Below are positions 15,000 through 22,407 of a stretch of 64,000 nt of DNA, piece after piece (position 1 is the first letter of the stretch; every line of letters starts with the position of its first letter). Source of the DNA: Halorubrum sp. 2020YC2. GTDB taxonomy: Archaea; Halobacteriota; Halobacteria; Halobacteriales; Haloferacaceae. The position numbers and the translations under genes were made by a program. The DNA is taken from the NCBI RefSeq assembly GCF_018623055.1, contig NZ_CP076019.1:1984001-2048000 (forward strand), given 5' to 3'. The notes below the pieces were generated by a model. The model saw only the letters and a list, made by a program, of their open reading frames with translations. It ran no database searches and had not been told where the DNA came from.

Positions 15000-15656
15000 A
15001 TGAGCGACACCGAAGCCGGCGCGCGCGTCGGACTCCCCTGTCCGTCGTGTTCGCCCTCCGAGCCGACCGTCCACGAGGTCCTCAGTCCGGGCGGACAGGC
15101 TACCGTGCGCTGCACCGAGTGCGACCACACCCACAAGACCGAGATCCCCGAGGAGGAGACCGTCGCCGTCACGATCGTCGTCTCACAGGACGGCGAGTCG
15201 TTCACGACGACGATGGACGTGCCGGCCGAGGGCGACGTCGCCACCGGCGAGGAGTTCGTCGTCGACACCGACGACGCGCTGATGCAGGTGCGGATCACGG
15301 GGATCGAGCTCGGTCCCGAAGAGCGCGTCGAGGAGGCGGACGTCACCGACGTGGAGACGCTGTGGACGCGCGCGGTCGACAACGTCGCGGTCCCCGTCAC
15401 GCTCCACCCGAAGGACGGCGAGGCGGACCAGACGCGCTCGCTGCGGGTGAACGTCCCCGGCGACTACGAGTTCACCGTCGACGAGACGGTGGAGTTCGGC
15501 GGGGAGGAGTTCACCGTCGAGGGGCTCCAGATCCGCGAGGACGCGCCCGAGTACCGTCACGAGAAGCTCGACCACCCCGGCGACCTCGCCTACGCGAAGG
15601 ACCTCAAGCGGGTGTACGCCCGCGACGAGACGCTCACCGCGTGGTCCGCCTGGTAG
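15000..15656 (+). CDS. HVO_0476-family zinc-finger protein
   Basis: A 218-residue haloarchaeal protein with an N-terminal zinc ribbon made of two CxxC pairs (LPCPSC and VRCTECDH) followed by an all-beta region with two similar halves (about 50-125 and 130-190). I recall this as the HVO_0476 zinc-finger family, whose role is undetermined. The ATG at 15000 lies about 30 nt after a gatatttacgggc promoter-like stretch, so the message may be leaderless. It is divergent from prs. Confidence 0.82.
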   Translation: MSDTEAGARVGLPCPSCSPSEPTVHEVLSPGGQATVRCTECDHTHKTEIPEEETVAVTIVVSQDGESFTTTMDVPAEGDVATGEEFVVDTDDALMQVRITGIELGPEERVEEADVTDVETLWTRAVDNVAVPVTLHPKDGEADQTRSLRVNVPGDYEFTVDETVEFGGEEFTVEGLQIREDAPEYRHEKLDHPGDLAYAKDLKRVYARDETLTAWSAW

Positions 15657-15736: not shown

Positions 15737-16043
15737 ATGAAGGATACGCTCGTGTGTAGTGACGTGCCACCCGTAGTACACGACTGACGCACGCTCGACG
15801 GCGGGGACGGCGACCGGTCCCGGCGGTCCGAGCACGCGCGAGGCGACCGAGACCGAACCGGCGACCGACCAATCGGGTCCATCGACGAATCCGAACGCGG
15901 ACGACGCGACCGAAGGCGCCGACGACCTGCCGACCGCCGCCGAGGCCGTCGCGCAGGCGGCGGCGACGTTCGACCCGTCGGACACCCAACGGATCGCGAA
16001 CGGCACCGACCGCTGGAACGCGTACGCCGGCTCGTCGCAGTAA
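15737..16043 (+). pseudogene. Possible decayed small gene upstream of heliorhodopsin
   Basis: An ATG at 15737 after a TATA-like cataaacaatt opens only 16 codons. An overlapping frame then stays open from 15777 to a TAA at 16041-16043 and encodes about 88 acidic, Ala/Asp/Thr-rich residues ending RIANGTDRWNAYAGSSQ, which looks like genuine haloarchaeal coding sequence but has no ATG, GTG or TTG of its own. A frameshift joining the two frames would explain both. No family recognised, and it may be chance. Confidence 0.3.
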
Positions 16044-16094
16044 CGGCGCGGCCGGATCCTTTTATTCGACGGCGCGACTACCGACGAGCGGCCG

Positions 16095-16220
16095 ATGACG
16101 AACCACCGCTCCGAGCCGGACTCGGCACCCGGCGACGACGAGCCCTATGAGTACCGAGGCCGCTTCCGCGCGTTCCCCGAGCAGTCGGTCGACGCTTTTC
16201 GACCGGTGGCACGTCCGTAA
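16095..16220 (+). CDS. Possible 41-residue peptide or gene fragment
   Basis: An ATG-started frame about 25 nt after a TATA-like ccttttattcg. The product is acidic at first and then basic (DEPYEYRGRFRAFPEQ). It has no membrane helix or known motif. It lies between the decayed frame at 15737 and the heliorhodopsin gene, and could be a truncated start of a lost gene. Confidence 0.3.
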   Translation: MTNHRSEPDSAPGDDEPYEYRGRFRAFPEQSVDAFRPVARP

Positions 16221-16313
16221 TGCCCCGCGGTCCGTCCCTCGAGACCAGCAGGGACGAACGGTTCGACCCTGCCGCCCACAGAGCTATCCCCGTGTAGTCT
16301 GTTACGGGACACG

Positions 16314-17123
16314 ATGTCTACATCGAACAGCGCGGCCGCCGAGACCGGCGGGCGGACGTCAGCGAGGGATACGCAACTTCGGCTGTGGAACGCCGTCATG
16401 GCCGTCTTACACTTCCTACAGGGGGCAGCGATGGTCGCCCTCGCCGACCGGGTCCTGTGGCCGATCACGCGGACGAGATACGGCTTCGACCCCGGAACAG
16501 AGACTATCTTTCCGGAAACGGTCTCCTTCGTCGACGCGAACCTCCCCCTGCTCGTGGCGGGGTTCCTCTTCGTCTCCGCGTTCGCCCACGCGGCGATCGC
16601 GACCGTGCTGTACGACCGGTACGTCGCGTACCTCGACAGGGGGATGAACCCTTACCGCTGGTACGAGTACGCCGTGAGCGCCTCGCTGATGATCGTCGTC
16701 ATCGGCATGCTGGCCGGGGTCTGGGACCTCGGAACGCTCACGGCGCTGTTCGGACTGGTCGCCGTGATGAACCTCTGTGGACTCCTGATGGAGCGGCGCA
16801 ACGAGTCGACCGACGAGACGGACTGGACGCCGTTCTGGGTCGGCGTCGTCGCCGGTGTCGTGCCCTGGGTCGTCATCGCGATCACGTTCCTCGGCACGGT
16901 GACGGCCAGCAACGGGGAGTTCCCCACCTTCGTCATCTACATCTACGTCTCGATCTTCGTCTTCTTCAACCTCTTCACGCTGAACATGGCGCTCCAGTAC
17001 CGGGAGGTGTCGCGGTGGAAAGACTACCTCTTCGGCGAGAAGGCGTACATCCTGTTGAGCCTCGTCGCGAAGTCCGCGTTGGCCTGGCAGGTGTACTTCG
17101 GGACCCTCAACTCCCCGATCTGA
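16314..17123 (+). CDS. Heliorhodopsin
   Basis: A 269-residue seven-helix protein that matches heliorhodopsins, the retinal proteins whose membrane orientation is opposite to type-1 rhodopsins. Retinal would bind K253 in LVAKSALAWQVY near the C-terminus. The Schiff-base counterion is E118 in PYRWYEYAVSASLM. Other family marks are LRLWNAVMAVLHFLQG (TM1), VMNLCGLLME (TM4), DWTPFWVGVVAGVVPWVVIA (TM5), NMALQYREV and KDYLFGEKAYILLSL. It is distinct from bacteriorhodopsin or sensory rhodopsin, which lack these motifs. The family does not usually pump ions; signalling or regulation of a partner enzyme is suspected in other organisms. No obvious partner or carotenoid gene adjoins. Confidence 0.93.
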   Translation: MSTSNSAAAETGGRTSARDTQLRLWNAVMAVLHFLQGAAMVALADRVLWPITRTRYGFDPGTETIFPETVSFVDANLPLLVAGFLFVSAFAHAAIATVLYDRYVAYLDRGMNPYRWYEYAVSASLMIVVIGMLAGVWDLGTLTALFGLVAVMNLCGLLMERRNESTDETDWTPFWVGVVAGVVPWVVIAITFLGTVTASNGEFPTFVIYIYVSIFVFFNLFTLNMALQYREVSRWKDYLFGEKAYILLSLVAKSALAWQVYFGTLNSPI

Positions 17124-17256
17124 CCGATTTCGGGGGGACTTCTGAGGAGCGCGCGTGGAGGTATGTGGGTCGGGAGCGTCGAGGCTGCCCGTCGGACGAG
17201 GACCCGGATCTCCCGAAAATGCGGTCGGAAGTGGACGCGAACGACCGAAAGCCGTG

Positions 17257-17985
17257 CTACGGCGGGGTCGTCTCGGCGACGGCGTTCGCGAGGAGATCGA
17301 GAAATTCGCTCTCGTACCCCTCGTCGACGTGATTCACGTTCCAGAGACCCGATTCCCGGATTTTGTCGCTCCGACTGTGCCGGCCGATCCAGTCGTCTCT
17401 CCGGGAGTCGATCGACCGCTTCTCGAAGTTGCTGAGGAGGGCGATGGCGTTCCGTTCGAGGCGCGCCCGATCGCTGTCCGCGCCGGGTTCGTCGTCGAGG
17501 TTCACCCAGAGGAACGGCTGTTCGCGGACGTAGGCGCTCACCCGCCGTTCGACGATGTACTCTTCAGAACGGACCTCCGACCGCTCGCGGTCGATCCCCG
17601 ACCAGCGGTCGTCCCAGTCGGGATAGTCGTCGGAGAGGTCGTGCTTCTCGATCATCGCCTCACCGACGCGCTTGCGGTACACCGAACCGCGGTGCGCCCC
17701 TCCGTGTGGATGGCTGGCGCTCCCGTCACCGGTCCCGTAATGCTGTTTCAGTCGGTCCCAAAGCGACGTGCTGCTTCCCGCAGAAACGGCGTGTGTCCCG
17801 ACCCGGGTGACGCGGAACTGGTCCGTCGAGTCCCGCGTTTCGCCCGGTTCGAGGAAGAAATAGACACCGCGCTCGGGCCAGTCCATGTAGCCGGTACAGT
17901 TCTTGAGCTTCCGTGTACCGCCAACTCGCTGGGCGAGGTCATCGAGTATGGTGTACAGACGGTCGAGGTCGGCCTGACGGACCAT
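17257..17985 (-). CDS. GIY-YIG-like nuclease-superfamily protein
   Basis: A 242-residue protein with the core layout of a GIY-YIG domain. A GIY-like strand is at G40-V41-Y42 (RGVYFFLEPGE), a YIG-like strand at R61-V62-G63 (VTRVGTHAV), an Arg in the following helix (LWDRLKQHYG, R78), and a late Glu in ARLERNAIALLSN (about residue 185). These positions match the family's catalytic pattern, though strand 2 lacks Tyr. The role could be DNA repair, restriction or phage-related. ATG at 17985 chosen; a longer TTG start ten codons upstream is possible. It converges with the heliorhodopsin gene. Confidence 0.65.
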   Translation of the reverse strand: MVRQADLDRLYTILDDLAQRVGGTRKLKNCTGYMDWPERGVYFFLEPGETRDSTDQFRVTRVGTHAVSAGSSTSLWDRLKQHYGTGDGSASHPHGGAHRGSVYRKRVGEAMIEKHDLSDDYPDWDDRWSGIDRERSEVRSEEYIVERRVSAYVREQPFLWVNLDDEPGADSDRARLERNAIALLSNFEKRSIDSRRDDWIGRHSRSDKIRESGLWNVNHVDEGYESEFLDLLANAVAETTPP

Positions 17986-18119
17986 TCTTACCAAACGGCT
18001 CCCTCTCGCGGACAAAGAAGTTCATCACTCAGTACGGCGGATCGAGTGGGAAAACGGGTCGACGGTCCCGTGTGTCGGTCGAACCAACCGTTTTCACGTC
18101 GCCGCGCGATCTGACGCTC

Positions 18120-18323
18120 ATGGATCACCGCTGTCCCGACTGCGGCGTCACGATGGAAGAGGTCGAGTTCAGCATGGGCGACGCTTGGAACGCACACGTC
18201 AGGACCGGCGAGGAGCGGTCAGGGCTCCTCGGAAAGCTCGGGATGAACGAGCGCAAGGAACTGACGACGGTGATGTGTCCCGAGTGCGGGCTGGTCCGCC
18301 ACTACGCCGAGTTCGAGGAGTGA
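18120..18323 (+). CDS. Small zinc-ribbon protein (67 aa)
   Basis: The product begins MDHRCPDCGVTMEEVEFSMG and ends MCPECGLVRHYAEFEE, giving two CxxC knuckles that can bind one zinc, separated by about 45 residues containing a Lys/Arg-containing loop (GLLGKLGMNERKELT). Small zinc ribbons of this kind are common in haloarchaea and their roles are mostly unknown. ATG at 18120 chosen because upstream codons are not conserved-looking. Confidence 0.7.
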   Translation: MDHRCPDCGVTMEEVEFSMGDAWNAHVRTGEERSGLLGKLGMNERKELTTVMCPECGLVRHYAEFEE

Positions 18324-18428: not shown

Positions 18429-20087
18429 ATGGAGCCAGACCTGGACCGATTCACGTCTCGCCGGTCGACCGTGTACGGCCAGCGCGGCGTGGTGGCGACC
18501 AGCCAGCCGCTCGCCAGCGAGGCGGGCATCGAAGTGTTACGCGAGGGCGGCAACGCGTTCGACGCCGCGGTCGCGACCGCCGCCGCGCTCAACGTCGTCG
18601 AGCCCACCTCGACCGGGCTGGGCGGCGACGTGTTCGCGCTGTACCGGACCGCGGACGGCGAGGTCGGCGCGATGCGCTCCTGCGGCGGCGCCCCCGCGGA
18701 CGCGACGATCGAAAACGTCCGGGCCGCGCTGGCGGAGGACGACGACGCGGACTCGTACTACCCCGACGACGGCGGCTACGCGGTCGACGACGCGGGCGAG
18801 GCCGGGATGCCCTTCTACGGCCCGCACGCGGTCACGGTCCCCGGGACGGCCCGCGGCTGGGAGGCGACCGTCGAGGAGCTGGGCCGGCTGAGCCTCGGGG
18901 ACGCGCTCGCGCCGGCCATCCGCTACGCGACGGAGGGGTACCCGGTGTCGGAGGTGATCGCCTCCTACTGGGCGAGCGCCGACGCGCTGTTCACCGACGA
19001 CCACGCCCGCGAGGCGTACCTGTTCGACGACGAGCCGCCGAGCGTCGGACAGACGGTGACGATGCCGCGGCTGGGCGAGTCGATGCGGACGATCGCGGAG
19101 GAGGGCGCGGACGTCGTCTACGAGGGCGAGATCGCCGAGGCGATCGCCGACGAGGTACAGTCGCAGGGCGGGTTCATGACCGTCGACGACCTCGCGGAGT
19201 TCGAGGTCGAGTGGCCCGACCCGGTGTCGACCACGTACAACGGCGCCGAGGTGTACGAACTGCCGCCGAACAACCAGGGGCTCATCGCGCTGGAGGCGCT
19301 CAACGTCGCCGCGGAGCTCGGCGCGGGCGAGCACGAGTACGACTCGCCGGAGCGCGTCCACTACTTCGCTGAAGCGATGAAACGCGCCTTCCACGACGGC
19401 CACCGCTACATCACCGACCCCGAGTACGAGGAGGTCCCGCCGCTGGCGTCGAGCGAGTGGGCGGAAGAGCGCGCCGCCGGCGTCGGCGCGACCGCCTCGC
19501 ACGACGTCTCCTTCGGCGTGCCGAACGCGAACGCCGAGGACGCCGACACCGTCCTCCTCACGGTGGCCGACGAGGCGGGCAACGTCGTCTCCTACATCAA
19601 CTCCCGGTTCGCCGGCTTCGGCTCCGGACTCGTCGCGGGCGACACCGGCATCGCGCTCCAGAACCGCGGCGCGTCGTTCTCGCTCGACCCCGAGCACCCG
19701 AACTCGCTCGAACCCGGCAAGCGGCCCTTCCACACGCTCATTCCGGGCGTGGTCCGGTTCGACGAGGACGACTGGGCGGCGTTCGGCGTGATGGGCGGGT
19801 ACATGCAGCCGCAGGGCCACGTCCAGGTTATCTCGAACCTCGTCGACTACGATATGCCGCTCCAGCGCGCGCTCGACGAGCCGCGGTGGCGCTACCGCGA
19901 GAGCGGCGAACTGGCGCTCGAACCGCACTTCGACGGCGACGCCGCGGCCAAGCTCGTCCGGAAGGACCACGACGTGCGGACGCTCTCGCCGGTCATGTTC
20001 GGCGGCGCGCAGATCGCCCGGAACCGGAAGGGTGTTCTCTCGGCCGCGACCGAACCGCGGAAGGACGGCAACGCACAGGGGTACTGA
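18429..20087 (+). CDS. ggt: Gamma-glutamyltransferase-family protein
   Basis: A 552-residue Ntn-hydrolase of the gamma-glutamyltransferase family. It would hydrolyse or transfer gamma-glutamyl groups from gamma-glutamyl compounds. The N-terminal part shows GGNAFDAAVATAAALNVVEP and GLGGDVFALYR. The self-cleavage/catalytic Thr should be T374 in NAEDADTVLLTVAD, followed by GNVVSYINSRFAGFGSGL and the Pro/Gly loop of the small subunit. No signal peptide is visible, so it may be cytoplasmic. Haloarchaea use gamma-glutamylcysteine, a plausible substrate (inference). Confidence 0.88.
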   Translation: MEPDLDRFTSRRSTVYGQRGVVATSQPLASEAGIEVLREGGNAFDAAVATAAALNVVEPTSTGLGGDVFALYRTADGEVGAMRSCGGAPADATIENVRAALAEDDDADSYYPDDGGYAVDDAGEAGMPFYGPHAVTVPGTARGWEATVEELGRLSLGDALAPAIRYATEGYPVSEVIASYWASADALFTDDHAREAYLFDDEPPSVGQTVTMPRLGESMRTIAEEGADVVYEGEIAEAIADEVQSQGGFMTVDDLAEFEVEWPDPVSTTYNGAEVYELPPNNQGLIALEALNVAAELGAGEHEYDSPERVHYFAEAMKRAFHDGHRYITDPEYEEVPPLASSEWAEERAAGVGATASHDVSFGVPNANAEDADTVLLTVADEAGNVVSYINSRFAGFGSGLVAGDTGIALQNRGASFSLDPEHPNSLEPGKRPFHTLIPGVVRFDEDDWAAFGVMGGYMQPQGHVQVISNLVDYDMPLQRALDEPRWRYRESGELALEPHFDGDAAAKLVRKDHDVRTLSPVMFGGAQIARNRKGVLSAATEPRKDGNAQGY

Positions 20088-21683: not shown

Positions 21684-21784
21684 AGCGTTCGGCCGAGCCT
21701 TTTCGGATTTTTCACACCATCTGAGCCGCGGCGCTCGGTAGCGTGAGCCGGTACGGTCGGGATGGGACTGCTATCCGTCTATGA

Positions 21785-22073
21785 GCCGGTGCGGTGGCGC
21801 GTGCCGGTGAGCGCCGCGCCGCGGCGCGAACCGCACGCGCGAGGGAGTCGCTGGCGGCGGCAGCCGCCAGCGACGAGGCTGGGGAGGCGTGGGGTGCCGT
21901 GCGGCTGCGGGCGGGCGGGACTCAAAGGGGCAGTTGCGAGGACGCAGTAGGCGTTCACGAGAGCATAGCTCTCGTGAGCCAATCAGAACGCTACGCGTTC
22001 TGATGACGATGTAAGCACCGCAGCGAGCAACGCGAGCGAGGAGCGCAACGAGCGTACTGCGTCCTCGCGACTG
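21785..22073 (-). ncRNA. Structured element core, locus A (candidate structured RNA)
   Basis: About 289 nt, read on the minus strand. The outer stem P1 pairs 22055-22073 with 21931-21949 (18 of 19 positions). Inside it are perfect hairpins at 21983-22003 (TCAGAACGC/GCGTTCTGA) and 21956-21976 (CACGAGAGC/GCTCTCGTG). The 20-nt linker CTGCCCCTTTGAGTCCCGCC follows (complement of 21914-21933), then a hairpin GTCGCTGGCGGC/GCCGCCAGCGAC at 21847-21874, then a GCGCGTGC...GCACGCGCC closing stem. The same plan with different stem sequences occurs at three other loci. No protein frame is conserved among copies. Transcription is not shown, so RNA is an inference from compensatory changes. Confidence 0.5.
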
Positions 22074-22349
22074 GGGCTTTGGAGGTCTTTGCCGCCGATC
22101 CACAGTCAGTTGTTTATAAGCGAGCGGCTGGGGCTTTGGAAGTCTTTGCCGCCGATCCACAGTCAGTTGTTTATAAGCGAGCGGCTGGGGCTTTGGAGGT
22201 CTTCGCCGCCGATCCACAGTCAGTTGTTTATAAGCGAGCGGCTGGGGCTTTGGAGGTCTTCGCCGCCGATCCACAGTCAGTTGTTTATAAGCGAGCGGCT
22301 GGGGCTTTGGAAGTCTTCGCCGCCGGTCTACCGTCAGGATCGGATAACT
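22071..22349 (-). repeat. 57-bp tandem repeat array, locus A
   Basis: Four full 57-bp units (starting at 22071, 22128, 22185 and 22242) and a partial fifth (from 22299) that diverges after about 40 nt. Read on the minus strand each unit runs CCGCTCGCTTATAAAC, then a spacer with GGATCGGCGG, then CCTCCAAAGCCCCAG. Units differ by only a few bases. Each holds a TATA-like box, so the array looks like serial promoters leading into the structured core. Because 57 is divisible by three the array is open in several frames, but no start or family supports a protein. Confidence 0.9.
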
Positions 22350-22407
22350 GGCTGCCGCCGGCACCGGGAAGCGAGCTACAGCCGATCGCTTCCTCGTCGG
22401 AAACCGA

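Follow-up and report, generated by a model that had tools for sequence, protein, structure and literature searches.

What does a heliorhodopsin (HeR) do in a haloarchaeon, and how did its gene come to lie where it lies? The question is raised by a gene of Halorubrum sp. 2020YC2 (genome G000 below) found in the window, by which is meant the whole stretch of 64,000 nucleotides analysed here (positions 1984001–2048000 of a 3.06-Mb contig). An earlier note on this DNA had recognised the protein and had suggested that the locus may have arrived by transfer. The features concerned are collected in Table 1.

Table 1. Features of the heliorhodopsin locus, in window coordinates.
Feature	Position	Strand	Basis or remarks
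CPxCG-related zinc-finger protein (PF19769), left flank of the slot	15000..15656	+	Pfam
sR-tMet C/D-box small RNA gene (RF02163), recurrent HeR neighbour in haloarchaea	16090..16161	+	Rfam, 76.1 bits
Variable slot, sR-tMet to zinc-ribbon gene	16162..18119	.	1958 bp: HeR and GIY-like gene
Promoter-like element CCCACAGAGCTAT	16275..16287	+	26 nt before the HeR ATG
Heliorhodopsin gene	16314..17123	+	269 aa, seven-helix retinal protein; PF18761, NF038020, Foldseek to TaHeR
E118 codon, Schiff-base counterion (TM3)	16665..16667	+	alignment to TaHeR E108
K253 codon, retinal-binding lysine (TM7, SLVAK)	17070..17072	+	alignment to the SLVAKSALAW lysine
246-aa protein, first called GIY-YIG-like; convergent with HeR	17257..17997	-	
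Small zinc-ribbon protein, right flank of the slot	18120..18323	+	
Gamma-glutamyltranspeptidase (PF01019), right flank	18429..20087	+	Pfam

Identity of the protein

The HeR reading frame runs uninterrupted from ATG to TGA. A Pfam search returned one family only for its product, PF18761 Heliorhodopsin (E = 9.1e-97; 323.6 bits; cut-off 26.7), with no match to the type-1 rhodopsin family PF01036 at E 0.1, and NCBIfam assigned it to the equivalog NF038020, “heliorhodopsin HeR” (357 bits; cut-off 100). The solved structures closest in sequence are TaHeR (6is6, E = 7.5e-75) and 48C12 (6su3, 8.9e-52). An AlphaFold2 model built from a 45-sequence alignment (mean pLDDT 88.5) matched HeR structures with a TMq of 0.80–0.86 and an rmsd of 1.4–2.7, the ten best matches all being HeRs, and matched type-1 rhodopsins with a TMq of 0.49–0.62 among the best 50 matches listed. 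The HeR fold has a beta-stranded A–B loop; in the model, strands 48–59 and 64–76 lie between helices 1 and 2. The earlier statement that this is a heliorhodopsin and not a type-1 rhodopsin is thus borne out by both family searches, by the solved structures, and by the predicted fold.

The same holds for the two residues on which that statement had relied, K253 in the last helix and E118 as counterion. E118 aligns with the TaHeR counterion, the site changed to Asp in the E108D mutant entry 7clj, and both residues are invariant in all 63 haloarchaeal rows of the alignment (50 distinct sequences) and in all 56 other rows. The motifs described for heliorhodopsins are SxxxK, which contains the retinal lysine, in TM7 and ESL in TM3 (PMC9601134). 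The first is present as S249-L-V-A-K253, invariant and in the last helix of the model, with S249 where the type-1 TM7 signature, DxxxK, has its D. E118 and S122 of the second are likewise present and invariant. Its third place, which we take to lie at +11 from the spacing of bacteriorhodopsin, is V129, and leucine occurs there in 13 of the 63 haloarchaeal rows and 43 of the 56 others. With a dN/dS of 0.09–0.18 against eight relatives, the gene is, on this sequence measure, under purifying selection.

Judged by sequence and predicted fold, the protein is therefore a canonical TaHeR-like HeR. When structurally aligned, it is 50–51% identical to TaHeR of Thermoplasmatales archaeon SG8-52-1 (6is6, 7u55, 7clj), with a TMq of 0.84–0.86 and an rmsd of 1.4–1.8; it has the same Lys and Glu counterion and, unlike this thermoplasmatal protein, has residues 1–12 disordered in the model. 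That a haloarchaeon should encode such a protein is no novelty: haloarchaeal HeRs are already known, that of Halorhabdus tiamatea SARL4B having been expressed and purified with retinal (536 nm; PMC7807009), and they are common, occurring in 41 of the 391 sampled genomes of the class (about a tenth) and in 19 of 86 genera. Our comparison with the Halorhabdus protein, haloarchaeal like the window's, is made through five HeRs of group g44 (which includes Halorhabdus salina), not the tiamatea sequence itself; these five fall in the deep haloarchaeal clade to which the window's HeR does not belong and are 65–67% identical to it.

A scan of genome contigs found 199 HeR relatives, of which the 80 kept, as 79 loci, come from haloarchaea, Thermoplasmata, Chloroflexota, and others. 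One of the loci (L093, 1045–1812), on a MAG contig labelled Haloarculaceae, encodes a highly divergent HeR (identity of about 50%, terminal branch 2.15), and the contig is either mis-binned or from an odd lineage. Within the genus, the gene is present in 4 of 52 genomes, and several close relatives have no HeR at the same locus.

The slot behind sR-tMet

The 650 nucleotides upstream of the gene had been described as decayed. This description must be abandoned, since the region contains the sR-tMet gene and a flank conserved in the genus: positions 15900–16163 were matched in 51 of the 52 genus genomes (a few of them weakly), with 82–97% identity at the best places, and in the better matches the homology ends at the last base of sR-tMet. 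The arrangement in the genus is prs, the CPxCG zinc-finger gene, and sR-tMet, all constant, then a slot of variable length, then the zinc-ribbon gene, the gamma-glutamyltranspeptidase, and a substrate-binding protein. The left-hand order was found in 17 of the 20 loci inspected (G001 is rearranged, and the stretches from G012 and G002 are without these genes), and the zinc-ribbon or transpeptidase gene was found on the right in 16 of the 20 (not in G020, G050, G001, or G012).

What the slot contains differs from genome to genome. It measures 72 bp in G047 and holds the GIY-like gene alone in G011, as against the HeR and GIY-like genes together in G000; in G008 it is occupied by a glycosyltransferase and a further ORF, and in G020 by a HeR with a homologous glycosyltransferase. 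Since slots thus exist with and without it, HeR behaves, in these sequence comparisons, as a single gene that can be inserted or deleted directly behind sR-tMet.

In the window and 15 other Halorubrum genomes, the slot is an insertion spot with a cargo particular to each species, ranging from 72 to more than 3,000 bp. The cargos of two genomes, G010 and G006, are low in GC. Elsewhere in the window, at 21771–22364, an ORF contains tandem repeats, with several copies of a 19-residue unit, LTVDRRRRPPKPQPLAYKQ, of about 57 bp.

Integrases use tRNA genes, and a comparable explanation here would be site-specific integration at the 3' end of sR-tMet, where the homology block stops at the last base and the cargo behind it differs among 16 genomes of the genus. 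However, the best candidates for a far-side repeat of the sR-tMet 3' end match at no better than 10–14 of 18 bases, no integrase was recognised by eye among the ORFs listed for the slots, and selection at the level of the RNA would by itself stop the homology at the same point. Such integration is, in our estimate, quite improbable, and sR-tMet was rejected as an attachment site for want of a repeat at the far side of the slot.

The 246-aa protein encoded downstream, on the opposite strand, is present in 14 of the 52 genus genomes. Its designation as GIY-YIG-like found no support: neither GIY-YIG nor any other family was returned by Pfam (E 0.1) or NCBIfam, PHROGs gave one unnamed match only (E = 0.022), a profile from 11 homologues found no nuclease in the PDB, and its low-confidence model (pLDDT 61) had no fold match. 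Neighbours of HeR elsewhere are mostly unique to one genome, and no immediate neighbour is common to the haloarchaea. The exceptions are a glycosyltransferase in all five genomes of group g44 and a protein of about 175 aa, located roughly 10–50 nt downstream, in three of the four genomes of group g40. A conserved operon partner was accordingly rejected.

The gene seems to carry its own promoter. DNA homology to the HeR locus of G175 spans 16276–17132, that is, from the promoter element to just past the stop codon, and the unit is probably promoter plus gene, of the leaderless type and transcribed alone, as judged from the DNA. Of the 25 HeR genes that are more than 74% identical to the window's, 16 have a related element (9 or more of 11 fixed places) at a comparable distance, two others attain 9 of 11 at a different distance only, and of 23 less closely related genes not one attains it; these counts, which cover 48 of 50 loci (G084 and a G287 fragment being left out), are a description and not a test because the motif was derived from the genes on which it was scored. 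An exact search of 12 HeR genomes gave 22 matches, five of them the HeR promoters themselves, against 19 for the reversed control pattern. With no enrichment over the control, the element looks like a core promoter variant and not like the mark of a co-regulon. Two pairs of unrelated small genes (L249/L270 and L263/L268) share an operator-like promoter that resembles the HeR element and consists of ACCAA(C/T)AGA with a partial inverted repeat behind it.

Chromosomal address and exchange of alleles

The sR-tMet gene was found in all 41 HeR genomes (in 36 over the cut-off). The distance from it to HeR on the same contig is at most 30 kb in 18 of the 41 (0.75 expected), at most 5 kb in 9 (0.12 expected), and at most 1 kb in 5 (0.02 expected), these chance figures taking the genomes as independent, which they are not, so that the count by genus (10 of 19 within 30 kb) is the safer one. 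The other 23 HeRs are not known to be as close as 30 kb, ten of them being on another contig; in the 40-HeR tree described below, this applies to 22 of 40, including two of the four Halorubrum HeRs (that of G039, at 313 kb, and that of G016, on another contig). Among the 18 linked HeRs, nine have sR-tMet upstream in the same direction and nine are convergent with it, and this orientation changes once on the HeR tree (shuffled mean 6.3; none of 500 shuffles as low).

A second landmark is ychF, the gene of a YchF-like GTPase, the positions of which were taken in 40 of the 41 HeR genomes (G181, which yielded a paralogue only, was dropped). In 22 of the 40, no more than 100 kb separate it from sR-tMet, and HeR lies between the two in 12 of these 22. 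In Halorubrum, ychF has moved away and is found in G000 at 1284401, as against 2000090 for sR-tMet. As a control, the Blh/Brp genes are not enriched within 30 kb of sR-tMet (2 of 50; 0.9 expected). Type-1 rhodopsin genes are mildly enriched there (9 of 93; 1.7 expected; one fragment below the cut-off left out), and the genomes in which one lies near sR-tMet are G164, G068, G172, G370, G175, G231, G237, G141, and G086. The linkage to sR-tMet, the stability of orientation, and the position between ychF and sR-tMet point to the vicinity of sR-tMet, often the ychF–sR-tMet interval, as an old haloarchaeal home of HeR that would have been kept or refilled; the 23 HeRs outside the linked set count against this reading.

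The sequences have a different history from the address. Two trees were built, of 65 and 40 rows; the 40-row tree is without G084, in which the gene is split, and the G287 fragment, and the 65-row tree was built without these, without 13 named loci already represented among the G genomes, and without the majority of the bacterial rows. The haloarchaeal HeRs separate into two deep groups, both of which include members of the genera g9, g26, g50, and g76. The window's HeR belongs to a clade of 22 rows (100/100) in which families f1, f2, f3, and f7 are intermingled, its own placement having a support of 85/82 in the 65-row tree and 97/89 in the 40-row tree. A single clade of the four Halorubrum HeRs is moderately rejected (AU p = 0.014), the constraint that places G175 with G353, both of genus g9, is rejected with an AU p of 1e-35, and the nine HeRs of family f1 are far from forming one clade (p = 1e-53). 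Family labels require 16 changes on the tree, compared with a minimum of 5 and a mean of 21 after shuffling.

The core gene YchF served as a control for these relationships. The HeR of G000 is 88.0% identical to that of the Halapricum genome G278 and 81–84% identical to those of its three genus mates, whereas its YchF is 69.8% identical to that of G278 and 93.5–94.7% to those of the genus mates; in synonymous distances, this reversal is not clean for every pair (for G175, for example, 0.46 for HeR and 0.57 for YchF). Over the 190 pairs from 20 of the 41 genomes, picked so as to represent the clade that contains the window's HeR, along with some others, the identities of HeR and YchF correlate with an r of only 0.20. 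The HeRs of Halapricum, Halosegnis, Halostella, Halosimplex, and Halorubrum kocurii (L081, L038, L036, L037, and L042) are in the same clade as the window's and are 82–88% identical to it; three of the five have the same promoter element at 9 or more of the 11 places, four are from other families or genera, and some lie away from sR-tMet.

Comparison thus shows that the HeR allele of G000 groups with other haloarchaeal lineages and not with its own genus. Because a single Halorubrum clade is rejected and because HeR identity runs opposite to that of the core gene, the sequences support an exchange of HeR between haloarchaeal families and a transfer to the genome of the window. The transfer suggested in the earlier note therefore stands, on the strength of the AU test and of the reversal between HeR and YchF; of the grounds given for it at the time, the “decayed” upstream region is incorrect and the GIY-YIG context is unconfirmed.

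Another possibility is vertical inheritance with many losses, in which HeR already stood between ychF and sR-tMet in the ancestor of the haloarchaea and has persisted here. The conserved address and orientation are in its favour, as are decayed copies. In G016 (Halorubrum kocurii), the gene contains an internal TAG. In G084 (L201, 9112–10180), it is split by an insertion sequence with a 330-aa transposase-like gene, apparent terminal inverted repeats, and a duplicated target. G287 has an intact HeR of another clade on one contig and, on another, a decayed C-terminal fragment (L230, G287:C9, 9546–9800) with Arg at the position of the retinal lysine; this relic, some 4 kb from sR-tMet, lies upstream of it in the same direction and fits neither orientation class. 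However, the AU results for the genus and for family f1 argue against this explanation, as does the lower HeR identity to genus mates than to other families, with YchF the opposite. Inheritance of this kind is disfavoured and appears rather unlikely.

An import from bacteria, or from elsewhere outside the haloarchaea, might be imagined given that HeRs are widespread in Chloroflexota and other bacteria and that two were found on bacterial plasmids. However, the nearest bacterial HeRs are about 50% identical to the window's and the haloarchaeal ones up to 88%, the gene's GC3, 0.915, is close to the 0.95 of the core genes on its flanks, and, in the phylogenetic check that the earlier note had proposed, its relatives in the well-supported clade proved to be haloarchaeal and not bacterial. 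The tree refutes such an import, to which we attach next to no probability. A viral or plasmid vector was also sought and rejected: no relative was found in viral contigs (peptide patterns) or in 50,697 phage records, and the two plasmid-borne HeRs, both bacterial, were the only ones in 72,556 plasmid records.

As to the mechanism of the exchange favoured here, HeR alleles probably move as a piece of about 0.85 kb comprising promoter and gene, and one allele would probably replace another through recombination that uses the conserved DNA around sR-tMet as its anchor.

Function and retinal supply

Several regulatory roles have been reported for heliorhodopsins, namely the binding of glutamine synthetase (PMC9529153), assistance to photolyase (PMC9769723), and the modulation of an ABC transporter (PMC11109279). 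In addition, the viral V2HeR3, which shares the family and the Glu counterion with the window's HeR, is reported to transport protons, with E191 and W195 as the hallmarks (PMC9448325). Light-driven proton transport of this type would be compatible with the fold that the two have in common and with the conservation of Q228 and E242, of the proton-accepting network, in all 63 haloarchaeal and all 56 other rows. However, the hallmark residues given for V2HeR3 (PMC9448325) are replaced by I214 and F218 in the window's protein, Ile and Phe occupy these gate positions in TaHeR too, and neither E nor W occurs there in any of the 63 haloarchaeal rows. Proton transport is consequently a highly improbable function for this protein.

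Because it is without both residues tied to proton-transporting HeRs, the window's HeR is most likely a sensor that acts on a partner encoded elsewhere. In such a mechanism, retinal on K253 would isomerise under green light, a slow photocycle without transport would alter the cytoplasmic face of the protein, and the altered face would regulate the partner, the gene for which would be elsewhere in the genome. On balance, and with moderate confidence, we consider HeR to be a photosensor cassette of one gene under a leaderless promoter of its own, the alleles of which are exchanged between families at a shared locus and the product of which may sense light for a partner encoded elsewhere.

A photosensor needs retinal. 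G000 encodes two Blh/Brp-type and two RPE65-type carotenoid oxygenases, with a lycopene cyclase match 0.35 kb from one of the Blh/Brp matches; with oxygenase and cyclase genes present, the production of retinal is plausible. The same genome encodes three type-1 rhodopsins. The Blh/Brp family is missing from 11 of the 41 HeR genomes, all 11 of which keep K253 and E118, and in 9 of these 11 an RPE65-type match over the cut-off is missing as well (G053, G086, G096, G113, G141, G172, G280, G285, and G370, the last having RPE65-type fragments below the cut-off only). Four of the nine (G096, G113, G280, and G285) are also without type-1 rhodopsins, and their HeR lysine is intact. A bacterium with no known retinal gene has been reported to build working rhodopsins (PMC7734400), which makes it plausible, by analogy, that the HeR genomes without matches to the known retinal oxygenases use scavenged retinal or another route.

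A more specific combination of these readings is possible, and we put it forward tentatively. HeR cassettes of about 0.85 kb would be swapped between families through recombination anchored on sR-tMet (and ychF), so that the position is inherited and the sequence is not; the photosensor would need no operon partner, and it would persist, with lysine and counterion intact, in genomes without the known retinal oxygenases.

The role of the HeR family is debated, and the window's protein adds one more haloarchaeal case to those already known. Among the titles in the open literature on HeR in haloarchaea or Halorubrum, or on sR-tMet, none concerns the genomic context of haloarchaeal HeR, and the observation on its position is modestly new. 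The lack of a conserved neighbour argues against inferring the function of HeR from operons in haloarchaea, and the 9 of 41 genomes that have the retinal lysine and no match over the cut-off to a known retinal oxygenase offer a way to test whether HeR depends on scavenged retinal. Since some haloarchaea can be manipulated genetically and several close relatives have no HeR at the same locus, the gene could be cleanly knocked out, or knocked in at a site that is defined and empty.
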